64,000 bases of DNA from Gemmatimonadaceae bacterium (GTDB lineage Bacteria > Gemmatimonadota > Gemmatimonadetes > Gemmatimonadales > Gemmatimonadaceae). Location: contig DASXKV010000032.1 in assembly GCA_036496605.1 (NCBI GenBank), positions 186,001-250,000 on the forward strand. The letters are read 5' to 3'. The translations under genes and the position numbers were made by a program. Of this stretch, positions 318 through 46,212 are shown piece by piece (position 1 is the stretch's first letter; each line of letters begins with the position of its first letter). The notes beneath the pieces are model-generated. The model searched no databases. It had not been told where the DNA came from and worked only from the letters and a program-made list of their open reading frames with translations.

Positions 318-1532
318 CTATCGCTCGACGACAGGAGGCAGGTGCGTCGTCAATAACCGCACCTCGATTCCGCCATTTCGAGTACGCAGGCGCTCGCTCA
401 ATGGCAAACGCATCTCACGCTCGAGACGCGAATTCGCGGACATCATCGCGAGCTCCCATCCGGGACACTTTTTCCGCAGGATCTGGCCAAGTCGTGCGTA
501 CAGATCGCGCAGCCTTTCCGCCTCGCCAATACGAATGCCGTACGGCGGATTCGTTACGACATGTCCAGTCATCTCGTGCGGCGGCTCGATGGCCGAGACG
601 GCGCGCACCGTGAACTCGATGTCCCCTGTGACGCCGGCACGTTGGGCGTTCGCCCGTGCCGCCCCGATGGCGCCATCGTCACGGTCCGATGCCGAGATGG
701 CGACCGGTGATTTTGGAAGCGCATCACTGACCGCCTCCTCGCGAAGCTTCTCCCACATCGCTGATCGAACTTCGGGCCATGATAGGAAAGCGAAGCTCCG
801 AGTCAGACCGGGCGCCATTCGTCGCGCGAGGAGCGCCGCTTCGATTGGTATCGTGCCCGAACCGCAGAACGGATCGATGAGTGGTGTCGTTCCCGACCAA
901 TCGCTTGCGATGAGCATCGCCGCGGCGAGCGTCTCCCGCAGCGGCGCCTTCGCAACCTGCTGTCGATATCCGCGTTGATGCAGCAACGCGCCCGAGCTGT
1001 CTGCGCTCACCGTGAACGCATCGTCGACGACGCGAATCACGAATAGTTGAGCACGCGACCCCGGCACATCGTTCTCGTCGTCGCTCTGTGGTGCCTCGAG
1101 CGCGCTCACCTTGCCGAGGCGATGTTCGATCGCTTCGGCGAGGCGTTGCTCGATCGCGCCGGTGTGATAGAGACGGGACTTTCGACTCGTCACCCGAAAG
1201 GTCACCGCGCTGCCGCCCGAGACGAAGCGCTCCCACGGTATGGCGCGTGCCAGACGCTCGAGCTCGTGGAAGGCACGGGCGCGAAAGCTGGCCACTCTCA
1301 CGATCACTCGGCTGGCTGTGCGCAGCCACAGATTTGCTCGCGCGATCGACTCGATCGGTCCGGAGAATGCGACGCCGCCGCCCCCATTCTCCGCGCGCGG
1401 CGTGAGCCCGAGAGCCTCGAGCTCCGCGGCGACTACCGGCTCGAGTCCCGGTGCCGCCGCGGCGTACGCCTCGAGCGTTCTCGCGGACTTACTTCGCGTC
1501 GCCGACGGCGCGGGCTTTTGGCGCTGCGGCAT
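318..1532 (-). CDS. THUMP-domain class I RNA methyltransferase (RlmL/Trm14-like)
   Basis: Predicted SAM-dependent methyltransferase acting on structured RNA, most likely 23S rRNA guanine-N2 methylation as in RlmL. The 404-residue product has an N-terminal THUMP-type RNA-binding region (about residues 20-170). A Rossmann methyltransferase domain of the UPF0020 type follows, with the motif FCGSGT near residue 220 and the catalytic NPPYG near residue 329. The length matches the stand-alone N-terminal half of E. coli RlmL, without the C-terminal RlmK half. The start codon ATG at 1532 lies 44 bases inside the 3' end of msrQ, which suggests translational coupling in a minus-strand operon msrP-msrQ-methyltransferase. 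The family is clear; the exact target base is inference. Confidence 0.85.
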   Translation of the reverse strand: MPQRQKPAPSATRSKSARTLEAYAAAAPGLEPVVAAELEALGLTPRAENGGGGVAFSGPIESIARANLWLRTASRVIVRVASFRARAFHELERLARAIPWERFVSGGSAVTFRVTSRKSRLYHTGAIEQRLAEAIEHRLGKVSALEAPQSDDENDVPGSRAQLFVIRVVDDAFTVSADSSGALLHQRGYRQQVAKAPLRETLAAAMLIASDWSGTTPLIDPFCGSGTIPIEAALLARRMAPGLTRSFAFLSWPEVRSAMWEKLREEAVSDALPKSPVAISASDRDDGAIGAARANAQRAGVTGDIEFTVRAVSAIEPPHEMTGHVVTNPPYGIRIGEAERLRDLYARLGQILRKKCPGWELAMMSANSRLEREMRLPLSERLRTRNGGIEVRLLTTHLPPVVER

Positions 1533-2199
1533 CAGTCAGGATGCTCGATCGTGTTGGCGCGCGTTGGGTTCGGCGTCCACGTAATCGGAGCGGCCCCACG
1601 TAGCGCTCCCACAAACGGAAGCCAAGCAACATCACGAACACGAACAGGTAAACGAGCGGGAACAACGTGTCCTTCTTCACGGCCCACAAATAATGCACCG
1701 TGCCCGTTATCGCAGACACGTAGATGATTCGATGAAGCTGTGCCCAGCGCGCTCCGCCGAGACGGCGCACCGAGCCCTTCGTAGACGTGAGGGCGAGCGG
1801 CACCAAGAGTACGAACGTCGTCATCCCGATGAGTATGTACTTATGCTTGGCAATCTCGCCGCCCATCGCGCGCCAGTCGAAGAACCAATCGACGCCGACC
1901 CACATGCTCAGGTGCACGCAAGCGTAGAAGAACGTGAAGAGCCCGAACATGCGGCGATATTTCGCGAGCGCGCCAACGCCGAGCAGCTCTCGCACGGGCG
2001 TCACCGCGAGCGTTATCGCCAGGAACCGAAGTGTCCACAGGCCTGTGAAGATCTCCGCCTCGCGAACAGGATCGGCGCCTAACGCCTCCGGCCGGTCGTG
2101 CGTGACACCCCAGAAATTCCAGGCGAGCAGCGCCGCCGGCACGAGGCAGAGCACGAACACCGCCGGCTTGAGGCGGCCCAACACACTCGCGGACTTCAC
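1489..2199 (-). CDS. msrQ: Heme-binding subunit of protein-methionine-sulfoxide reductase
   Basis: MsrQ (YedZ) is an inner-membrane b-type cytochrome of the ferric-reductase-like transmembrane family. It passes electrons from the quinone pool or flavin reductase to periplasmic MsrP. The 236-residue protein shows about six hydrophobic helices with His residues placed as in the family (for example in ACVHLSMW and WAQLHRIIYVSAITGTVHY). GTG at 2199 is the chosen start. It lies 26 bases after the msrP stop, so the two form the usual msrPQ pair. The 3' end overlaps the downstream methyltransferase gene by 44 bases. Confidence 0.93.
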   Translation of the reverse strand: MKSASVLGRLKPAVFVLCLVPAALLAWNFWGVTHDRPEALGADPVREAEIFTGLWTLRFLAITLAVTPVRELLGVGALAKYRRMFGLFTFFYACVHLSMWVGVDWFFDWRAMGGEIAKHKYILIGMTTFVLLVPLALTSTKGSVRRLGGARWAQLHRIIYVSAITGTVHYLWAVKKDTLFPLVYLFVFVMLLGFRLWERYVGPLRLRGRRTQRAPTRSSILTDAAAPKARAVGDAK

Positions 2200-2225
2200 G
2201 CTCGAGAAATCAATCGTCGGATGAC

Positions 2226-3170
2226 TCAGTAATTCTTCCTGAGATCCATCCCCGAGTACATGCTGGCTACCTGCTCAGCGTAGCCGTTGAACATGAGCGT
2301 ACGCCGGCGTCGGAATTCGCCGATCCGCCGCTCTGTTGCCTGCGACCAGCGCGGATGATCCACCTCCGGATTCACATTGGCGTAGAAGCCGTACTCGTCG
2401 GGCGCGGCGATGTTCCACGTCGTCTCCGGCTGCTTGTCGACGAAAGCGATCTTCACGATCGACTTGATGCCCTTGAAGCCATACTTCCAGGGCACGATCA
2501 GCCGAATCGGCGCTCCGTCCTGATTCGGTAGTGGCTTTCCGTAGAGGCCCGTCGCCATCAGCGTCAGATCGTTCATCGCCTCGTCCATGCGAAGGCCCTC
2601 CACGTACGGCCACTGCAGAATCGGTCGTCGTTGCCCCGGCATCTCGTTCGGCCGAGAGACGGTCGTGAACGCGACGTACTTTGCCGACGGCGCGGGCTCG
2701 AACCGGCGGATCATCTCGGCGAGCGGAATCCCTTGCCAGGGAATGACCATCGACCACGCCTCGACGCACCGAAGGCGGTAGGTGCGATCCACGATTTTGT
2801 GCGGCTTGATGAGATCCTCGAAGTGATAGTCGCCGGGCTTCTTGCACAGCCCTTCGACGCGCACCGACCACGGCATCGGATGAAACCCTGCAGAGTTGTC
2901 CTTCGGGTCCTCCTTGTCGGTGCCAAATTCGTAGTAGTTGTTGTACGAAGTGATCTGTTCGTACGTGTTCAGCTTGTCCTCCGGCTGTTGAGCGGAGTCC
3001 ACGGACACATCGCCGTCCGACGAGCCTCGCGCGTCCGAGTTGCACGCGAGGAGGCCGACCCCGGAAGCCCCGATGATTCCCGCTGCGACGAGAAAACGCC
3101 GCCGGTTGAAGTAGAGCTTCTCGTCAGTTATCTCCGACGACTTGATGTCGTCCGGGCGTCTGATCCACAT
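2226..3170 (-). CDS. msrP: Protein-methionine-sulfoxide reductase catalytic subunit
   Basis: MsrP (YedY) is a periplasmic molybdopterin enzyme that reduces methionine sulfoxides in exported proteins damaged by reactive oxygen or chlorine. The 314-residue product starts with a short cytoplasmic lead and a Tat signal containing NRRRFLVAAG near residue 23. The sulfite-oxidase-type fold follows, with the molybdenum-ligand Cys in LRCVEAWSM near residue 135. GLLAC in the signal region could look like a lipobox, but Tat export is the family norm. It is the first gene of a minus-strand operon with msrQ directly downstream. The divergent neighbour is recQ, and the shared 150-base spacer carries inverted repeats. 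Confidence 0.94.
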   Translation of the reverse strand: MWIRRPDDIKSSEITDEKLYFNRRRFLVAAGIIGASGVGLLACNSDARGSSDGDVSVDSAQQPEDKLNTYEQITSYNNYYEFGTDKEDPKDNSAGFHPMPWSVRVEGLCKKPGDYHFEDLIKPHKIVDRTYRLRCVEAWSMVIPWQGIPLAEMIRRFEPAPSAKYVAFTTVSRPNEMPGQRRPILQWPYVEGLRMDEAMNDLTLMATGLYGKPLPNQDGAPIRLIVPWKYGFKGIKSIVKIAFVDKQPETTWNIAAPDEYGFYANVNPEVDHPRWSQATERRIGEFRRRRTLMFNGYAEQVASMYSGMDLRKNY

Positions 3171-24022: not shown

Positions 24023-24595
24023 ATGCTGCTCGTACATGTCTTGCCGTTTGTCGTGAGTGTCGTCGTCGGGGCTTCGGATTCGACGTTGGCGCGAGATACG
24101 TCGTTGACGTTTCTCGTGCCCCCGTTAGTTGTCGCGGACACGCCGCGCGTTCGTCCGCGAGCGATTGAAATCAGCGATTGGTACGGGCGTCGCCTGACCA
24201 TTCATCGCACGCTCAGCTACACCGTGATCCCAATCTTCGCCGCACAGTGGTTCGCCGGCGAGCGGATTTACAAGCACGGAAACGAGGCTCCTGACTGGGC
24301 GAAGACGACGCATCGCGCTGGAGCGACCGCACTCGCGGGTATCTTCACAGTCAATACAGTCACTGGACTGTGGAATCTCTGGGACTCGCGAAGTACTCCG
24401 AACGGTCGCGCGCTGCGATACTTTCACGCGTTGACGATGCTCGTGGCGGACGCGGGCTTCACCTACGCGGGTGTGAAGCTGTCGAAGGACGCCGAGACGG
24501 ACTTCAACAAGCGACGCGAGCACCGCACGATCGCGATCTCATCGATGGCGGTGACGGTTGTGAGTGCGTTGGCGATGAAGCTGTATAACAAGTAG
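24023..24595 (+). CDS. Small polytopic membrane protein with conserved-looking His residues
   Basis: A 190-residue membrane protein with a hydrophobic N-terminus and about four further helices (IHRTLSYTVIPIFAAQW, HRAGATALAGIFTVNTVTG, YFHALTMLVADAGFTYAG, IAISSMAVTVVSALAMK). His residues sit at the helix ends, in IHRT, THRA, FHAL and EHRT, the spacing expected of a cytochrome b561-like bis-heme protein. The heme call is inference; no family was recognised outright. ATG at 24023 is chosen over the upstream frame. It is followed at once by a second membrane protein and two Rieske genes, suggesting a membrane redox unit. Confidence 0.65.
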   Translation: MLLVHVLPFVVSVVVGASDSTLARDTSLTFLVPPLVVADTPRVRPRAIEISDWYGRRLTIHRTLSYTVIPIFAAQWFAGERIYKHGNEAPDWAKTTHRAGATALAGIFTVNTVTGLWNLWDSRSTPNGRALRYFHALTMLVADAGFTYAGVKLSKDAETDFNKRREHRTIAISSMAVTVVSALAMKLYNK

Positions 24596-24596
24596 C

Positions 24597-25118
24597 ATGC
24601 TCCTGGAATCAGCCGCCGCGCCAACGACCGTGGCACTCGCGCGCCTGTTCGAACCGTGGGCGCATCTCTACGCCGATTCGAAGTTGATCGCGACCGTGGT
24701 GACCTTTGGCCACATCGCCTCGCTGCTCATGGCCGGCGGATTGGCGGTTGCGACGGACCGTGCGACGCTGCGTGCGTTGCGCCTCGCCGCCGCCGAACGC
24801 GGACGGCATCTCCTGGAGCTGTCTGGCGTCCACCAGCTCGTCGTTGGCGGCCTCGTGCTCTCGGTCTCAACGGGGCTGCTGTTGTTCGCCTCCGATGTGG
24901 AAACCTTTCTGCGTTCGTGGGTCTTCTGGTTGAAAATGGGAATGATCTGTGTGCTGCTCGGAAACGGATTCGCGATGACTCGCGCCGAAAAGGCGCTCCG
25001 CGCAGACGCGGCCGAGAGCTCGCCAGCGTGGACGCGTCTGCGTCGGACGGCGCTCACGAGCGTTGCGCTGTGGTACGCCATCACCCTCGCCGGCGTCGCG
25101 TTGGCCAATATTGCCTAG
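24597..25118 (+). CDS. Membrane protein of unknown function
   Basis: A 173-residue protein with about four membrane helices (LIATVVTFGHIASLLMAGGLA, VHQLVVGGLVLSVSTGLLLFA, SWVFWLKMGMICVLLGNGFAM, ALTSVALWYAITLAGVALA). His residues in TFGHIAS and SGVHQL could be heme or metal ligands. ATG at 24597 follows the upstream stop by one base, so translation is coupled. Position between the first membrane protein and two Rieske genes points to a role in electron transfer. I do not recognise the family with certainty; it resembles small DUF2214/DUF6644-like membrane proteins. Confidence 0.65.
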   Translation: MLLESAAAPTTVALARLFEPWAHLYADSKLIATVVTFGHIASLLMAGGLAVATDRATLRALRLAAAERGRHLLELSGVHQLVVGGLVLSVSTGLLLFASDVETFLRSWVFWLKMGMICVLLGNGFAMTRAEKALRADAAESSPAWTRLRRTALTSVALWYAITLAGVALANIA

Positions 25119-25158
25119 CGCCGCCCTGGCACGTCCGATACGATCGGCAGGAGCATCG

Positions 25159-25704
25159 ATGAATCGTCGTGATGTGAAAGATGAGCAGAGTATGAATTCG
25201 TGCACCGAGTGTCCATTGGGCGAGGTTCTGGAGCGCCGCCGCTTTCTGCGCGACGCCGCGCTGGCTGCGGTGGGTATCTTCGCCGCGCTTGGCGCCGTCA
25301 CCTCCGACGCGCGTGCGCTGCCGGTGCGTTTCGCGTCCTCGTTGCCGGTGTCGGCGCGTGCCGACGAGCGCACATATCCGATACCTAACGAGGACGGCGC
25401 CATGATCGACCGGGAGGAATCGTTGATCGTCGTGCGCTGGCAGGGAACGGTCTACGTCTTCTCGCTCGCGTGTCCGCATCAGAACACGGCGCTCAAATGG
25501 GAGCAGCGCGAAGCGCAGTTCCAGTGCCCCAAGCATCACTCAAAGTATCGCCCAGACGGCTCCTTCATCGAGGGACGTGCAACCCGCGGCATGGATCGAT
25601 TCGCGGTACGCCGCAACGGCGACAACGTCGTGGTCGATCTCGACAAACTGTATCAACAGGACAAGGACGCCGCGGAGTGGAAAGGGGCGTTCATTCAGGC
25701 TTGA
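25159..25704 (+). CDS. Tat-exported Rieske [2Fe-2S] protein
   Basis: A 181-residue iron-sulfur protein. A Tat signal contains LERRRFLRDAALAAVGIFAA. The Rieske domain has ligands Cys and His in ACPHQN and Cys and His in CPKHHSKY, a high- or mid-potential cluster. There is no second Cys pair for the disulfide of cytochrome bc1-type Rieske proteins. Start ATG at 25159 has AGGAG 6 bases upstream; the unusual N-terminus before the signal is Cys-bearing (SCTECPLGEV). Follows two membrane proteins and precedes a second Rieske gene by 12 bases. Confidence 0.88.
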   Translation: MNRRDVKDEQSMNSCTECPLGEVLERRRFLRDAALAAVGIFAALGAVTSDARALPVRFASSLPVSARADERTYPIPNEDGAMIDREESLIVVRWQGTVYVFSLACPHQNTALKWEQREAQFQCPKHHSKYRPDGSFIEGRATRGMDRFAVRRNGDNVVVDLDKLYQQDKDAAEWKGAFIQA

Positions 25705-25716
25705 CGAAGGAGCCTC

Positions 25717-26175
25717 ATGTCGTGTGCGAATTGTTTAAGTAGGCGCGCGTTTCTGGCGAAGGGCGCGGCGGCGGCGGCGGCCGCCGCACTCGTCGCAGGG
25801 TGCGGCAACGGCGTGTTCGGTCCACCCCTGCCGTCGCACTCCGCCGGCGGCGTCCCCTCGGGCACGCTGACGATCAAGGTTTCTGATCACACTGAGCTCG
25901 CCTCCGTCGGCACGCTCGTGCAGTTCGGCGAACGCGCCGTCAAGCGAGTCGACACAATGTCGTTCTTTGCGTTGTCGCTGATCTGCACTCATCAAGGGTG
26001 CGACACAGCCGTGCAGCCGACGAACATCATCGAATGCCCCTGTCATCATTCGCGTTTCAACCCTGACGGGACGGTGATCAATGGGCCGGACAACTCCGCG
26101 CCCACATCGATCAACCCGCTCGCGACGATCCCCACCTCGTATAACCCTCAAACCGACGAGTTGACGATCGGCTAG
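25717..26175 (+). CDS. Second Rieske [2Fe-2S] protein, Tat lipoprotein-like
   Basis: A 152-residue protein. The N-terminal signal (CLSRRAFLAKGAAAAA...LVAGC) combines a twin Arg with a lipobox Cys near residue 29, so export and lipid anchoring are likely. The Rieske domain shows CTHQGCD and CPCHHSRF. Here each ligand motif carries an extra Cys, so a stabilising disulfide is possible, as in bc-type Rieske proteins. AAGGAG stands 4 bases before the ATG. Last gene of the four-gene membrane/Rieske unit. Confidence 0.88.
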   Translation: MSCANCLSRRAFLAKGAAAAAAAALVAGCGNGVFGPPLPSHSAGGVPSGTLTIKVSDHTELASVGTLVQFGERAVKRVDTMSFFALSLICTHQGCDTAVQPTNIIECPCHHSRFNPDGTVINGPDNSAPTSINPLATIPTSYNPQTDELTIG

Positions 26176-27141: not shown

Positions 27142-27948
27142 ATGGCTGATTTGCAAACCTCCCCGACGGACGTTGTAACCGCCGGCGTCGCACCCGACGT
27201 CGGTAAATACGTGTACTGCATCATTCGCAGCGATCGCCTGCGTGAGTTCGGGGCGATCGGGATCGGTGGTGGACAGCGCGTATACACGGTGGCCTTTCAC
27301 GATCTCGCGGCGGTCGTGAGCGATACTCCGATCGTCATCTACGATCCGACGCGCGAGAACGTACTCGCTCACGAGTTCGTGAACGAGACCGTGATGAAAG
27401 AGCACACCGTGATTCCCATGTCTTTCGGCACGGTGTTTCGATCGGAAGACGACGTTACCGAACTACTGCGCTCGACCTATCAAGCGTTCAGCGATGTTCT
27501 CAGCAAGATGCAGGACAAGATCGAGTTCGGGCTGAAAGTGTTGTGGGACCGAGAGAAGGTCATCGCCAACATCGAGCGAGAGAACGACGAGATCCGAAGG
27601 TTGAAGGACGAGATCAGTCGACACACCGCATCATCGACATACTTCGCTCGCATGCAGCTCGGCCGCCTGATCGACTCCGCACTCGAGGAAATCGGCCAAC
27701 GCTACGTGAACGACATTCACGATCAGATCAAGCCCGTTGCCGTCGCAAGCCGCAGCAACAAGCCGATCGGCGATCGAATGATCCTCAACGCGGCGTTCCT
27801 CGTCGATCGAGCGCAGGAGTTTGCCTTCGACGAGCGCGTAAAGGAGACGAGCCGAAAGTACGAGGAGTTGTTGACGTTCAAGTACTCGGGCCCTTGGCCC
27901 CCGTACAACTTTGTGAATATCAAGCTGAAGTTAGAGAAGGCGGACTGA
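27142..27948 (+). CDS. Gas vesicle protein GvpF/GvpL family, copy 1
   Basis: GvpF/L proteins are minor components or assembly factors that bind GvpA during gas vesicle nucleation. This 268-residue copy has the family N-terminal half beginning KYVYCIIRSDRLREFG. It continues with LAAVVSDTPIVIYDPTRENVLAHEFVNE and IPMSFGTVF, and ends in the family motif SGPWPPYNFVNIKLK. A coiled-coil-like helix (about 130-165) separates the halves. First gene of the gvp cluster, with gvpG 8 bases downstream. Confidence 0.92.
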   Translation: MADLQTSPTDVVTAGVAPDVGKYVYCIIRSDRLREFGAIGIGGGQRVYTVAFHDLAAVVSDTPIVIYDPTRENVLAHEFVNETVMKEHTVIPMSFGTVFRSEDDVTELLRSTYQAFSDVLSKMQDKIEFGLKVLWDREKVIANIERENDEIRRLKDEISRHTASSTYFARMQLGRLIDSALEEIGQRYVNDIHDQIKPVAVASRSNKPIGDRMILNAAFLVDRAQEFAFDERVKETSRKYEELLTFKYSGPWPPYNFVNIKLKLEKAD

Positions 27949-27956
27949 CCTCCCGC

Positions 27957-28268
27957 ATGGGGCTGCTCTCGAACATCCTTTTCTTTCCCGTTACCGGCCC
28001 CGTTGCGGGTGTCCGGTGGGCGTTAGGAAAGGTTCAGGCCGTTGTGGAGGAGGAGTTGACGGACGACTCGGCCGTGAAGCAGCAGCTCATGGAACTGCAG
28101 ATGCTGGTCGAGCTCGGAGACATCGACGATGCCGAGTACGTGCGGCGCGAAGCGGCACTGATGCAGCGACTGCGCGAAGTGCGCGAGTGGCGTGAGCGTC
28201 TGGGAAAGGGCGTCTCGGGAGGCCCGGTTCGCGTCGCGCGCGACGAGGACGAAGGCGCAAAGGGGTGA
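27957..28268 (+). CDS. gvpG: Gas vesicle protein GvpG
   Basis: A 103-residue helical protein of the GvpG family, an essential minor assembly factor in gas vesicle formation. The N-terminal motif GLLSNILFFPVTGPVAGVRW is characteristic. A Glu-rich helical part follows (QLMELQMLVELGDIDDAEYVRREAALM). ATG at 27957 stands 8 bases after the first gvpF/L gene. The end overlaps the next start in a GTGA, so the ATPase is translated by coupling. Confidence 0.9.
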   Translation: MGLLSNILFFPVTGPVAGVRWALGKVQAVVEEELTDDSAVKQQLMELQMLVELGDIDDAEYVRREAALMQRLREVREWRERLGKGVSGGPVRVARDEDEGAKG

Positions 28269-30262
28269 GCGCTGATCGAGCGCCGAGCCGTCCCGCGATA
28301 GACGAATTTCTCGAGAGACTGCCCGGCCTCGCCCTCATCGTCGGTAAAGGCGGAGTCGGAAAGACCACATGCGCAATTGGTATTGCCGCACGGCTTGCCG
28401 CCGCAGGGAACCGGACCCTCCTCGTCGCCACGGATCCCGCCGGTTCACTCGGTCCCGCCCTCGAAACGACGCTCGTCCCTGGAGAAGCCAGCGCTGTCCT
28501 CGGCGCGAATGGGCTGTCGGCGATGCAACTCGATCCGGCTTCCGCACGGGCAGCGTTTCTCCAGCGGTGGCGAGAGGTCTTGGTCACGATCATCGATCGT
28601 GGGACCTACCTCGACTCGGAGGAGATCCGAGGTCTCGTCGACACATCATTTCCCGGCGCAGACGAGATCTTCGGTCTGCTCGTTCTGACGCAGCTGTTGA
28701 GCGCCGACGCGCCGCAACGATGGAGTCGATTCGCTGTCGATACGGCGCCGACCGGGCACACGCTTCGTCTCCTCGCGCTGCCTGACACCTTCGCCGCGAT
28801 GATTTCGCTGCTCGATTCGATGCAGGCGAAGCATCGGTTCATGGTGAGCGCGCTGACGCACCGTTACCGACGGGACGCGGCGGACGACTTTCTGGACGAG
28901 ATGCGGCGCACGCTTGGCGAATTGCGAGAAGCGTTAGGCAATTCGGAACGAGCGGGCGCGGTGCTGGTGACGCGGTCGGAGCGCGTCGTCGTGAACGAAA
29001 CGGTGCGATATGCACAGGCGCTGCGGGGGCTCGGGATCTCTATTGTCGCGGTTGTCGTGGACTCGATGGAGGGAGCGATTTCAGAGGATGCGGTCGCGAT
29101 GGCAGAGCTGTCGGAGATCGCGCCGGCGGGTGGTTTGTTCGGGCTGCCGCGCGTCGAGCCGCCGCCGATCGGCCTGAGGGCGTGTTCGTTAGCGTTAGGC
29201 GCGCTGACTCCGCTTGGAGTGGCTGCCGGCCGTCGGAAATCGATGGTGGGTGCGAGAGAACGCTTTCGGAACGAACATCGATCGAAGGTAGATTCGAAGG
29301 CGGGGGGGCCCCCCAGCGCCGGGCCCGACAGCGCCGGCCAGAGGAAACGCATCCTCCGCCTGCTGCGCACTCTCACAATTGTCGGCGGCAAGGGGGGTGT
29401 CGGTAAGACGACAGTCTCCTGTGCCCTCGCAATCATCTCCGCTCTCGAAGGCGCCAAGGGAGTTGACGACACACTGCTCGTCTCGACGGATCCCGCGCCA
29501 TCCATCGGTGACGCTCTTGGAATCACTGGCACGCCCTGGGCACACAAAGGGCCGGAGTCCCTGAACACTGCACCCGGGCTACATGTATGGCAAATGGATG
29601 CCGGGAGCGGCTTCGACGAGCTCCGTGATCGCTATCGCCATCGTGTCGACAGCTTCTTCGATGCAATTACCGGCGGCAGCGTCGATATCGCACACGATCG
29701 CGCCATTCTACGTGACCTGTTGTCGCTCGCTCCACCTGGCATCGATGAGCTCTACGCGCTCGCGTCACTGGGTGAGTTGCTCGAAGCAGGACGCTACGCC
29801 CGCGTCATTATCGATCCCGCTCCTACGGGACACTTGATGCGGCTCCTCGAGTTGCCGTCACTGGCTCTCGAATGGAGTCATCGCTTGATGCGTCTCATCA
29901 TGAAGTACAGAGAAGTCGCTGGACTGGTAGACGCGGCGCAGGATCTCGTGACCTTCAGTCGACGGACGCGCACACTGGATCGATTGCTCCACGATTCGAC
30001 AAGAGCCGGCGCCGTGCTGGTCTCGCTCGACGAGCCAGCGGTGACCGCCGAGACACAGCGATTGTCGGCGGCACTTGGCGCAACGGGAATCGCGATCCTT
30101 GGGGAAGTTCGCAATCGTGTGGCTGCGAGCTCCCATACCTCAGTGGCTCCGGAGCAATTGGCACGCGTGGTTTTCTTCGCTCCCGAGATGGATCCACCTC
30201 CGATTGGCGTTGCCGCGATTCGCGACTGGTGCGAACGTTGGCAGCGAGAAGATTCGCGTTAA
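28265..30262 (+). CDS. Tandem ArsA/Get3-like ATPase within the gas vesicle cluster
   Basis: A 665-residue protein of two SIMIBI-class ATPase domains. Half 1 has the deviant Walker A VGKGGVGKTT at about residue 26 and ATDPAGSLG. Half 2 has VGGKGGVGKTT near residue 374 and STDPAPSIGDALG. Each half carries the DTAPTGHTLRLL or DPAPTGHLMRLL switch motif of ArsA/Get3. No Cys triad for arsenite and no CxxC for zinc is evident. Arsenic genes are absent, so a Get3-like chaperone role for hydrophobic Gvp proteins is a better guess (inference). The inter-domain linker (about residues 325-365) is coded across a G7C6 run at 29302-29314. Start GTG overlaps gvpG. Confidence 0.88.
   Translation: MSADRAPSRPAIDEFLERLPGLALIVGKGGVGKTTCAIGIAARLAAAGNRTLLVATDPAGSLGPALETTLVPGEASAVLGANGLSAMQLDPASARAAFLQRWREVLVTIIDRGTYLDSEEIRGLVDTSFPGADEIFGLLVLTQLLSADAPQRWSRFAVDTAPTGHTLRLLALPDTFAAMISLLDSMQAKHRFMVSALTHRYRRDAADDFLDEMRRTLGELREALGNSERAGAVLVTRSERVVVNETVRYAQALRGLGISIVAVVVDSMEGAISEDAVAMAELSEIAPAGGLFGLPRVEPPPIGLRACSLALGALTPLGVAAGRRKSMVGARERFRNEHRSKVDSKAGGPPSAGPDSAGQRKRILRLLRTLTIVGGKGGVGKTTVSCALAIISALEGAKGVDDTLLVSTDPAPSIGDALGITGTPWAHKGPESLNTAPGLHVWQMDAGSGFDELRDRYRHRVDSFFDAITGGSVDIAHDRAILRDLLSLAPPGIDELYALASLGELLEAGRYARVIIDPAPTGHLMRLLELPSLALEWSHRLMRLIMKYREVAGLVDAAQDLVTFSRRTRTLDRLLHDSTRAGAVLVSLDEPAVTAETQRLSAALGATGIAILGEVRNRVAASSHTSVAPEQLARVVFFAPEMDPPPIGVAAIRDWCERWQREDSR
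29302..29314. repeat. G7C6 homopolymer pair in the ATPase linker
   Basis: Seven G then six C residues in the codons for Ala-Gly-Gly-Pro-Pro, between the two ATPase domains. The run is self-complementary and slippage-prone. The frame is intact in this sequence. Confidence 0.8.
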
Positions 30263-30289
30263 GGCTCGAGTTCCCTTTTCTCAAATCTG

Positions 30290-31129
30290 ATGGCGCGTCC
30301 CTCCCCATCTTTCTCGGATATCTGGTACGTCTATGGCGTCGTTCCTGCAGCGTTCGACGTGACCCGCGCGCCGACTGGCTTGGACGACACCGATGTCGAG
30401 CTGTGTGCTGACGGCGATCTCGCGGCGCTGGTGTCGCGACTCGACGGAGAGCAATATGCGCCGGCAGCCGTCGAGCATGCGACGGAAGACGTGGAATGGC
30501 TCGCGCCGCGAGCGGTTGCGCACGACCGCGTGTTGATCTGGGCGAGCGACCAGGGTCCGGTGGTGCCGCTTCCGCTCTTCTCTCTGTTCAGTGGTGCACC
30601 GGCAGTTCAAAAGATGCTGATCGAACGAGGGTCACAACTCTCGTCGGCGCTGGACCGCGCCGGGTCTGGACGTGAGTACGCGTTGCGCGTCTATCGCATC
30701 GACTCCGAGCTCGCGAAGTCGGCAGTGGATTTCAGTCCGCGACTTGCCGAGCTGCGCGACGCCGCGGCGGCGGCCACGCCCGGTCAGCGATACCTCATCG
30801 AGCGCAAGCTCGAAACGGAACGGAAGCAGGAGCTCCTCGCCATCGGCGCCAGGGTCGCCCGCGATATCGTCGCCGCGCTCCGACCCGTCGCTGTGGGCTC
30901 GACCGAGACTCGTATCCCGCCTCGCGCCAGTCATGGCGGTGCGGAGGCGGCGCTGATCCTCGATGCCGCGTTTCTGGTCGCCGCGGGCGAGCTGGAACGG
31001 TTCCAGCGAGTGCTTACCGATCTTGTCAGCCGTCACTCGTCCCGGGGGTTTCGGTTCGACTTTACCGGTCCATGGCCGCTATATCACTTCGTTCAAAGCC
31101 AGCCCGCATCCAGTGACGACGACGCCTAA
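30290..31129 (+). CDS. Gas vesicle protein GvpF/GvpL family, copy 2
   Basis: A 279-residue GvpF/L paralogue. It begins with IWYVYGVVPAAF, carries RAVAHDRVLIWASDQGPVVPLPLFSLF in place of the usual IPMRFGTVF segment, and ends in DFTGPWPLYHFVQ. The middle is helical and charged (QRYLIERKLETERKQELLAIGARVA). ATG at 30290 stands 27 bases after the ATPase gene. Its end overlaps the following gvpJ-like start by 17 bases. The divergence from copies 1 and 3 suggests distinct positions in the assembly complex. Confidence 0.87.
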   Translation: MARPSPSFSDIWYVYGVVPAAFDVTRAPTGLDDTDVELCADGDLAALVSRLDGEQYAPAAVEHATEDVEWLAPRAVAHDRVLIWASDQGPVVPLPLFSLFSGAPAVQKMLIERGSQLSSALDRAGSGREYALRVYRIDSELAKSAVDFSPRLAELRDAAAAATPGQRYLIERKLETERKQELLAIGARVARDIVAALRPVAVGSTETRIPPRASHGGAEAALILDAAFLVAAGELERFQRVLTDLVSRHSSRGFRFDFTGPWPLYHFVQSQPASSDDDA

Positions 31130-31367
31130 CGACTCGGACGACGATGAGCTGTCCGACCGCCAGCTCGCGCTTGGCGATTTGCTCAATCGCGTTCTCGACA
31201 AGGGCGTCGTCATTTCGGGCCACGTGACGATCTCGATTGCCGACATCGATTTGCTGGCGTTGGATCTCAAGCTCATCCTGACTTCCGTGCAAACGGCGCT
31301 CGAGCGCTACGATTCCGCAGAGCATGGCGACGTATCTCTACTGCGTTCTGGCTCCGCCAAAGACTGA
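31113..31367 (+). CDS. GvpJ-like gas vesicle protein (GvpA family), copy 1
   Basis: An 84-residue member of the GvpA/GvpJ family. The core LGDLLNRVLDKGVVISGHVTISIADIDLLALDL has the family helix-strand-strand pattern, with charged ends unlike GvpA itself. Such minor paralogues shape or cap the vesicle. GTG at 31113 is the only start that keeps the acidic N-terminus (TPNDSDDDELSDRQ); it overlaps the upstream gene by 17 bases, and its end overlaps the next start by 44. A GCCTAACG octamer lies at its start. Confidence 0.83.
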   Translation: MTTTPNDSDDDELSDRQLALGDLLNRVLDKGVVISGHVTISIADIDLLALDLKLILTSVQTALERYDSAEHGDVSLLRSGSAKD

Positions 31368-32034
31368 GGATTTTCCCACCGGCCTGACCGGGATCGCCGG
31401 TGCAGCCGTCCGTGCAATCACCACACGCGCGGGCGCGGGCCTCGAGGCATGGGTGGCGACTGTCGACGAATCGAAACTCCGCGCGAGCGGCAGCGCGCTC
31501 GCGCGGCTCGCGCTGCTGCATAACGAGGTGATCGAGGCCGCGCTGGCGACGCGGCGCACACCGCTCCCGACTCGCTTCGGTTCCTGCTTCGCTGACGACG
31601 AGGCTTGCCTCGCCGACCTCTCGGCGCGTGAGGACGAGTTATTTGAGCGCTTGGAGCGAGTCGCCGACGCGATCGAGATGTCGGTGCTTCTCGTCCCGAT
31701 CGAAGGTGCGGTTCCATGGCCGGCCGCCCTTCCACGGGGGGAGGAACCTTCTGCAGGTCGACGCTACCTCGAGGTAGTGCGCGAGCGTACACGAGCCGCG
31801 GACGAACGTCGCGCGGCCGCTGATGCCCTGACCGATCGCGTAACGGTCGCGGTGTCGGAGGTCGCCAGGGATGAGCGCCGGTCCCTTTCCAAAGAACCGG
31901 TTGCGATTGCGCATCTCGTGCGGCGGGCAGATCTCGAGCACTATCGACGGGCGCTCGCTGGCGTGAATGCGGGTCCGTCGCTCAGAATCGTCGTCGCGGG
32001 ACCGCGCGCGCCGTATAGTTTTGCGTCAGATTAG
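31324..32034 (+). CDS. Gas vesicle protein GvpF/GvpL family, copy 3
   Basis: A 236-residue GvpF/L paralogue. It has the N-terminal strand MATYLYCVLAPP, the central TPLPTRFGSCFADDEACLADL (the family's IPMRFGTVF region) and a shortened C-terminal motif IVVAGPRAPYSFASD. It is shorter than copies 1 and 2. The gene sits inside the run of overlapping gvp genes, with its first 44 bases inside the gvpJ-like gene, and is followed by gvpK after 17 bases. Confidence 0.87.
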   Translation: MATYLYCVLAPPKTEDFPTGLTGIAGAAVRAITTRAGAGLEAWVATVDESKLRASGSALARLALLHNEVIEAALATRRTPLPTRFGSCFADDEACLADLSAREDELFERLERVADAIEMSVLLVPIEGAVPWPAALPRGEEPSAGRRYLEVVRERTRAADERRAAADALTDRVTVAVSEVARDERRSLSKEPVAIAHLVRRADLEHYRRALAGVNAGPSLRIVVAGPRAPYSFASD

Positions 32035-44547: not shown

Positions 44548-46095
44548 TTAGCTCTGACGCTCCATCGCGATTTCCGCGTCGAGGCTGGCCTTATCGCGGA
44601 AGATCGTTGCGACAGCACGGGTTTTGTCGCCCTCGATGAAGTGCACGGCAACGTCGCGGTCCTTCGCGACGCCGTCCACGTCAACGCGATCCCACCGTTC
44701 GGCATGTCCGACGTAGTTGATCGAGACGTCGTAATGTGCGCTCCAGAAAAAGGGCACCTGCTCGAATCGCTCCCGCGCGCCGAGGACGTTTCGTGCCGCG
44801 GCCTGACCCATCCGCTCGGCGACCACCCAGTGCTCGACCCGGATAAGCGCGCCGCTGTGCGGGTCTGGCCATCGCGCAATATCCCCCGCTGCATAGACGC
44901 GCGGCGCGCTCGTCTCAAGATATTCATTGACGACGACGCCCTTGTCGATGCGGAGCCCGGCGTCCTGCGCCAGTTGAAGGCGCGGGCGCACGCCCACACC
45001 GATGACGACGAGATCCGCGGCCAGCCGCTCGCCGTTGGCGAGCGTCACCGCCGCACGCTCGATCTTCGTCGCTGTTTGCTGGAGATGAAATACGACGCCG
45101 TGCTCTTCGTGCAGCGCCTTGATGAATTGACCGAGATCGCGACCCATGACGCGCTCGAGCGGCAGCGCCTCGGGCGCAACGACGTCGACCGAGCAGCGTG
45201 GATTGCGCGTCCGAAGCGACGCCGCTACCTCGAGCCCGATGAAGCTCGCGCCGATCACCACTGCGTGCGTGGCGCGCTCGCTCGCGGCGATGATCGCGCG
45301 GCTGTCGCGCAGCGATCGCAGATAGTGCACGTGCGGCAGGTCGGCACCGGGCGTCGTTGAGCGAACGGGCTCGGCGCCCGTTGCAAGAATCAGCGCGTCG
45401 TAGCCGATTGGCGGCGCGCCGTCGACATGAACCATGCGTGCCGACGTATCGAGCTTGGTCGCGCGCGAACGCCGCACCGCCACCCGATGTTCGTCATAGA
45501 ACCCGGGCGGACGGATCGGGATCCACTCCTCGGGCGCGTTCCCGGCAAGATAGTCCTTCGAGAGATTGGGCCGGTCATACGGCGAACCGTCGTCCTCGTC
45601 GATGATCGTTACGTCGCCACGAAAACCACACCGACGCAGCATCTCGGCCGCCGCCGTGCCCGCGGCACCGGCGCCGACGATTATGACTTTGCTCAACTCT
45701 TTGCTGGCGGGCGCATTGGGGTAACTCGGCGCCAGCGGATCCCGATCGATCTTGTCGCCGACGACAATTCGCCCGCCTCGCCGCTCGACCCGCCAGCACG
45801 AAACAGGATTGAGCGCGGGGGCGCGAAGCGCTTCGCCATTCCGCAGACTGAAACAAGCGTGATGCCAGGGGCAACGAACCGTGTCGTCGACGAGCTCGCC
45901 CTCGGCGAGCGGCCCGCCGTAATGCGTGCACGTCGCGCCAATCGCGAAATACTCGTCCGCCACACGAGCGAGCAGGACCTGCTCTCCATTCGCGTGACCG
46001 AGCAGCTTGTAGCCGTCCTTCAACGCGTCTGCGTCGATCCCCGTTGCCAGATCGGGTCCGTTGAGCTTCGTTGCCGTTCCTTCCGCCGTCGCCAT
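44548..46095 (-). CDS. Rieske-fused FAD-dependent NAD(P)H oxidoreductase (AIFM3-like)
   Basis: A 515-residue enzyme. An N-terminal Rieske domain (about 10-115) has CTHYGGPL and CPWHHACF as [2Fe-2S] ligands. A pyridine nucleotide-disulfide reductase follows, with FAD motif VIIVGAGAAGTAAAEML near residue 130, NAD motif HAVVIGASFIGLEVAASL near 265 and APRVYAAGDIARW near 400. The C-terminal reductase domain matches ferredoxin reductase/AIF-type proteins. It likely moves electrons from NAD(P)H to a partner redox protein. ATG at 46095 has a strong GGAGGGAGG ribosome site, and the frame upstream is discarded. Two DinB-fold genes flank it. Confidence 0.92.
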   Translation of the reverse strand: MATAEGTATKLNGPDLATGIDADALKDGYKLLGHANGEQVLLARVADEYFAIGATCTHYGGPLAEGELVDDTVRCPWHHACFSLRNGEALRAPALNPVSCWRVERRGGRIVVGDKIDRDPLAPSYPNAPASKELSKVIIVGAGAAGTAAAEMLRRCGFRGDVTIIDEDDGSPYDRPNLSKDYLAGNAPEEWIPIRPPGFYDEHRVAVRRSRATKLDTSARMVHVDGAPPIGYDALILATGAEPVRSTTPGADLPHVHYLRSLRDSRAIIAASERATHAVVIGASFIGLEVAASLRTRNPRCSVDVVAPEALPLERVMGRDLGQFIKALHEEHGVVFHLQQTATKIERAAVTLANGERLAADLVVIGVGVRPRLQLAQDAGLRIDKGVVVNEYLETSAPRVYAAGDIARWPDPHSGALIRVEHWVVAERMGQAAARNVLGARERFEQVPFFWSAHYDVSINYVGHAERWDRVDVDGVAKDRDVAVHFIEGDKTRAVATIFRDKASLDAEIAMERQS

Positions 46096-46212
46096 GAGCC
46101 CCCTCCCTCCTCCGAAGAATCGTCGCCGCATTGGCGTGATTCGCCGCGACAATCATACCTTGTGACTTCGACGAATCGGACCTCCGCGGCAACCCGCAAC
46201 CGAGATCGCTTT

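Follow-up and report, generated by a model that had tools for sequence, protein, structure and literature searches.

To our knowledge, few Rieske proteins have been described outside bc-type complexes, arsenite oxidase and oxygenases, and those few are poorly understood. The four-gene unit reported here (genes A to D) lies in the window, which is the whole 64,000-nucleotide stretch of Gemmatimonadaceae DNA that was analysed, and it was compared with the closest described systems. As in the bc1 and b6f complexes, a membrane protein with paired His residues stands beside Tat-exported Rieske proteins, and the nearest Rieske chains of solved structure belong to this class (9rk3 for C, E 1.5e-12; 9rk4 for D, E 1.9e-8). 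Unlike those complexes, the unit lacks cytochrome b (PF00033) and cytochrome c1, carries two different Rieske proteins, and has small membrane proteins (A and B) with no detectable relationship to cytochrome b. Of the bc1/b6f Rieske marks (disulfide pair, Ser and Tyr), D has the disulfide pair and Ser but Phe for Tyr, and C has Ser and Tyr but no disulfide.

Proteins of the b561 type have four helices with one conserved His on each, and the paired His residues hold two hemes. Protein A shares with this group (PF01292, PF03188 and CybB) the pattern of one invariant His per helix over four helices, but no significant match was obtained by profile comparison (hhalign) of A with CybB or with 30 Gemmatimonadota members of PF01292. 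MsrPQ is similar in joining a membrane b heme protein to a Tat-exported periplasmic partner; the partners of A and B differ in being two Rieske carriers, with no molybdenum enzyme. The small Rieske subunit of arsenite oxidase, AioB, is Tat-exported like C and matches it at E 6e-10, but the unit has no AioA-like enzyme and none of 46 C proteins has the disulfide Cys pair.

The four genes run head to tail on the forward strand from 24023 to 26175, separated by gaps of 1, 40 and 12 bp (Table 1). The sequence-only reading had described a compact set in which two membrane proteins accompany two exported Rieske proteins, and all four ORFs proved to be as described. The second small membrane protein that it claimed is B, which has an invariant His/His/Lys set; both C and D begin with a twin-arginine N-terminus, followed in D by a lipobox; and the Cys difference between the two Rieske proteins is real. 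Its statement that cytochrome c1, cytochrome b and oxygenase components are missing also held for the unit, within which no ActABC subunits were found either.

Table 1. Coordinates of the four-gene unit and of other features.
Feature	Position	Strand	Description
Gene A	24023..24595	+	190 aa; signal-peptide-like N-terminus, four predicted membrane helices, candidate di-heme b membrane protein
Gene B	24597..25118	+	173 aa; small multi-helix membrane protein, remotely HemJ/CopD/DUF2214-like
Gene C	25159..25704	+	181 aa, alternative later start at 25192; Tat-exported Rieske protein without lipobox
CxxC (CTEC) before the twin-arginine motif of C	25201..25212	+	From sequence; by regex in 42/46 C homologues
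Rieske cluster region of C, CPHQNTALKW...CPKHHSKY	25471..25548	+	Disulfide Cys absent, Ser and Tyr kept
Gene D	25717..26175	+	152 aa; Tat lipoprotein Rieske
CxxC (CANC) before the twin-arginine motif of D	25723..25734	+	From sequence; by regex in 23/44 D homologues
Predicted lipid-carrying Cys29 of D	25801..25803	+	From sequence; lipobox VAGC, Gly at +2
Rieske cluster region of D, CTHQGC...CPCHHSRF	25984..26058	+	Disulfide pair and Ser present, Phe replaces Tyr
MsrP/MsrQ-like pair, presumed by eye	1492-3170	-	Tat-signal protein and small membrane protein
Gas vesicle gene (GvpL/GvpF) and ArsA-like ATPase	27142-32031		Just downstream of the unit; placement kept in L032, L033 and L038
Extra Rieske domain	45793-46023	-	In a 534-aa frame, 44551-46152
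Second unit copy, other contig of the same genome	L086 7436-9275		D-A-C without B
Cupredoxin_1 near B	L062 7386-8513; L124 8015-9124; fragment L135 6339-6872		C absent
Tandem double Rieske D	L002 1180-2100; L043 5871-6737; L045 5134-5946; L052 5647-6570		

Positions are those of the window except where a locus label (L) is given.

Both Rieske proteins matched PF00355 above its cut-off of 20.3 bits (C 35.4 bits, D 39.1 bits) and both contain the CxH...CxxH motif. Homologues were divided into C and D classes by the second motif box, so that the C figures for Lys/Arg, Ser, Tyr/Phe and the missing Cys pair are partly definitional. With that reading, the 46 C proteins all have the Tat motif and the Ser, 44 have the Tyr, 42 have a CxxC ahead of the twin-arginine motif, and none has a lipobox or a disulfide Cys pair. 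Among the 44 D proteins, the Tat motif was found in all, the lipobox in 42 (by regex), the CxxC in 23, the disulfide pair in 11, the Ser in 9 and the Tyr in 4. When 26 C proteins were aligned, no variation was seen in the two N-terminal Cys, the Ser or a GRATR motif. A Rieske domain tree (107 columns, quick method, motif columns included) recovered C as one clade (support 100) and placed D on one side (82), which points to two long-lived Rieske lineages that go with the set. Solitary Tat Rieske proteins related to C, with no conserved partner, were also seen (L171-L175 and L181-L185); mostly they have CPHRG as the first box, and CPKHKAR or CPKHxST as the second.

Of the 42 D proteins caught by the regex, 39 have Gly and 3 have Ser directly after the predicted lipid-carrying Cys, and none has Asp; the two D proteins outside the regex have Cys-Gly at the lipobox place by eye. 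By the E. coli sorting rule, a residue other than Asp after the lipid Cys favours the outer membrane, and the Gly or Ser of D would by that rule favour the same destination. The CxxC ahead of the twin-arginine motif would leave with the cleaved signal peptide in both classes. It was missing in three clear non-Rieske Tat proteins of the same loci, a small control.

In the yeast Rieske protein, loss of the Ser lowers the potential by 130 mV and loss of the Tyr by 65 mV, according to PMC12954380. Taken with the residues kept in each class, these effects suggest that the potential of C should be fairly constant and that of D variable. The D protein of the window, having both disulfide pair and Ser, belongs to a minority group of D proteins. 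The sequence-only reading had argued that the two proteins differ in extra Cys residues and hence probably in potential, which is only half borne out. The surroundings of the C cluster are nearly fixed, while the disulfide pair occurs in only 11 of 44 D proteins, and which of C or D has the higher potential therefore probably differs between species.

Eleven columns are invariant among 40 aligned homologues of A, and four of these are His (H61, H97, H135 and H167, kept in 40/40 and spaced by 36, 38 and 32 residues). Hydropathy predicts four helices, each bearing one of these His residues near its start. Helices 1 and 3 would start on one face of the membrane and helices 2 and 4 on the other, and the His pairs would thus hold one heme per face; the loop counts of positive charges conflict with the topology implied by the signal-peptide-like N-terminus. 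The best Pfam matches of A were weak and mostly sub-threshold: DUF4079 in 33 of the 40 members (best 5e-6), DUF420 in 13 and Ni_hydr_CYTB in 9, with the A protein of the window below the curated cut-offs for DUF4079 and DUF420. Profile comparisons of A with B and with HemJ were not significant. Structure models built from two-row alignments were poor (mean pLDDT 46 for A, and 57), and no match in the PDB fold searches reached E 0.001. Profile matches of A to the designed heme protein 4D2 were weak (E 0.001, no stretch passing alone) and were set aside. The description of A as a His-bearing b561-like membrane protein is thus borne out by its His pattern, which is that of a di-heme b561-like protein with putative heme ligands, and not by significant homology.

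Protein B has 14 invariant columns in 42 sequences, including two His, one Lys, an Asp-Arg pair and two Trp (H39, H79, K113, D54, R55, N123, G124, S155 and W159 were kept in 42/42). Conserved His is accordingly found in both membrane proteins across homologues, and the sequence-only reading, which hung on this, was not refuted. Weak family matches were obtained to DUF2214 (34 of the 42 members), DUF6644 (22), UPF0093/HemJ (22) and CopD (13). The B protein of the window was below the curated cut-offs throughout (18.1 bits against 34.2 for UPF0093), and no significant homology to PF01292 proteins was found. In a profile alignment with three HemJ proteins the Lys of B fell on the HemJ Lys, an alignment that was not significant (E 0.06). 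B differs from these families in its other conserved residues and in having a Rieske, or sometimes a cupredoxin, as its genomic partner. In two loci without C, B is followed downstream by a gene for a Cupredoxin_1 protein, at a distance of about 140 bp from the B domain in L062 and of 1.4 kb in L124, and a fragment of this family lies in L135; this fits a periplasmic carrier as the partner of B.

Across 298 Gemmatimonadota genomes, 111 copies of A were found in 89 genomes, 109 copies of C in 99 genomes (E 1e-25), and matches to B in 122 genomes (E 1e-3). Strong B matches, kept above a gap in the match list at about 1e-13, numbered 94 copies in 86 genomes. At least one of A, strong B and C is present in 106/298 genomes, roughly one in three. 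B lies within 3 kb on the same strand for 80 of 111 A copies, A likewise for 78 of 94 strong B copies, and C within 300 bp for 77 of 94 strong B copies. B precedes C in 79/79 linked cases and A precedes B in 74/78; 26 of the 109 C copies have no A or B nearby. When the neighbourhoods of 40 B matches, L002 and the window were scanned, A, B and one or two Rieske genes adjoined in nearly all loci, and no further gene family was common to them except among close kin. Other large neighbour clusters overlap the A-D genes and were read as shadow frames. The only gene that recurs behind the unit is dNK, in nine loci, and it was accordingly not taken as a partner. A scan of genome contigs with B yielded one relative, from a Gemmatimonadetes MAG. 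Tblastn searches of plasmids gave no match for A and, for C, one weak cyanobacterial Rieske as the sole match; A was not found in viral contigs.

Gene order was read in 82 segments of 78 loci, of which L103-L137 were picked mostly for a missing A or B partner, so that incomplete sets are over-counted in the tally. The commonest order was A-B-C-D (19 segments), followed by A only (12, with the contig ending near A in at least three), A-B-C (10), A-D (10), B only (8), A-D-B-C or A-DD-B-C (6), B-C (5) and A-C-D (2); ten further arrangements were seen once each. That A-D-B-C exists besides unattached A-D and B-C suggests that A pairs with D and B with C. L049 and L137 each carry both pairs, A-D and B-C, at separate places on a single contig; exceptions are L050 and L066, which have B with D, and the D-A-C copy without B in the window's own genome (L086). 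The genes are linked across relatives, a condition that the sequence-only reading had set, but the unit is modular, since A+D and B+C can each stand as a pair of their own. A strict complex of all four proteins is unlikely, given the A segments lacking a Rieske gene and the C copies distant from both other genes.

No PF00033 cytochrome b match was obtained in the window's genome (97.4% complete, 2.9% contaminated), nor in A or B. The genome has four strong COX1 genes and two NrfD genes, each NrfD operon (L099 and L100) also encoding a five-heme protein, a protein of about 1000 aa, a one-heme protein and a further ORF. We take these two operons to be alternative complex III (ACIII). When the NrfD/ActC protein of this genome was used as a query for this NrfD-type ACIII marker, 290 of the 298 genomes matched at 1e-10 (mostly with far lower values), including 89/89 A-positive genomes. 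PF00033 was matched in 49/89 A-positive genomes (38 of the 49 at about E 1e-28 or better) versus 108/209 A-negative genomes, a similarity which argues that A neither replaces nor follows bc1. According to PMC9426454, petB occurs in 23% of 326 genomes and ACIII, from KEGG annotation, in <10%, and poor annotation or novel complex III modules were suggested there. The near-universal occurrence of ActC favours the former over the latter, and indicates that these genomes do not lack complex III.

Because the unit combines two export-signalled Rieske proteins with a two-heme His pattern in A and a B tied to C, and coexists with ACIII, we propose tentatively, with somewhat less than even confidence, that A-D may be an accessory, modular electron relay from the membrane to the periplasm. 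A would hold two b hemes, one near each face of the inner membrane (bound by the His residues of helices 1 and 3 and of helices 2 and 4, respectively), and would conduct electrons across it. B would be a second, probably heme-binding membrane protein and the partner of C, a Rieske protein that would be released into the periplasm, while D would be a Rieske lipoprotein serving A. The presumed donor would be menaquinol, the presumed acceptors periplasmic one-electron carriers (a c-type cytochrome or a cupredoxin), and the flow would run outward beside ACIII, with A-D possibly in physical contact. The sequence-only reading had offered a minimal quinol-oxidising complex or a periplasmic electron relay. 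The relay option is retained; a stand-in for bc1 is not, since ActC accompanies A in every A-positive genome and A does not avoid cytochrome b.

The main rival to this relay reverses its purpose: electrons from the quinone pool or cytoplasm would keep targets in the periplasm or envelope reduced or handle superoxide, with the Rieske proteins as delivery carriers. E. coli CybB and MsrPQ are the models for such a role, and the superoxide oxidase CybB is laid out as a di-heme membrane protein without an enzyme subunit, as A may be. Most D clusters are without disulfide, Ser and Tyr, which suggests a low potential and hence a reducing role. Against it, C keeps the potential-raising Ser/Tyr pair (46/46 and 44/46), no reductase or other enzyme is conserved beside the unit, and A has no profile match to CybB; we regard the reductive version as unlikely, yet deserving of serious attention. 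An extension in the other direction, in which A would feed a soluble C and an outer-membrane-anchored D, so that electrons would reach the outer membrane through Rieske clusters replacing multiheme cytochromes, seems improbable. The CxxC before the twin-arginine motif would then serve as a cytoplasmic check of the loaded protein before export.

The remaining alternatives carry less weight. That B may be a HemJ-like protoporphyrinogen oxidase whose electrons A and the Rieske proteins drain, making A-D a unit for making or handling heme, would agree with the weak UPF0093 similarity in 22/42 B proteins, the aligned Lys, and the presence of true HemJ in only 3 of 41 relatives searched. The profile alignment is not significant (E 0.06), the conserved set of B, with its two His, is different, and most genomes, although presumably able to make heme, have no B; we give this reading little credence. 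Less credible still, and largely refuted, is that A-D would be the quinol:cytochrome c oxidoreductase that bc1-less Gemmatimonadota have been suspected to require. The lack of a PF00033 match in the window's genome and in 40/89 A-positive genomes, and the novel modules raised as a possibility in PMC9426454, speak for it; two ACIII-like operons in the same genome, ActC in 290/298 genomes and in all 89 with A, the absence of A from 209/298 genomes, and the lack of enrichment of A where cytochrome b is missing speak against it. A-D was on this account rejected as a complex III substitute, and the two operons together with ActC in all A-positive genomes favour the accessory relay. Finally, A, B and C each also occur alone, as they would in a chance run of unrelated small genes, but the order is conserved across many genera (79/79 for B before C, 74/78 for A before B) with no other conserved neighbour, and this linkage leaves chance grouping refuted, with scarcely any probability.

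Judged by titles and the starts of abstracts, no description of the A-D unit was found in the open-licence literature among the matches listed, and among these DUF4079 received only a passing mention in one paper. The nearest mention of Rieske in a Gemmatimonas paper was HucE of a hydrogenase cluster (PMC7784904). The A-D unit looks like an uncharacterised electron relay that works alongside the usual respiratory complexes. Members of two Rieske lineages and of their recurring membrane partners, themselves known only as DUFs, are present in roughly one in three of the genomes examined, and the findings correct the natural guess that these genomes lack complex III. The unit offers a small, defined test case of the minimum needed for electron transfer between a membrane and Rieske proteins, and it could give the DUF4079-like and DUF2214-like proteins a function.
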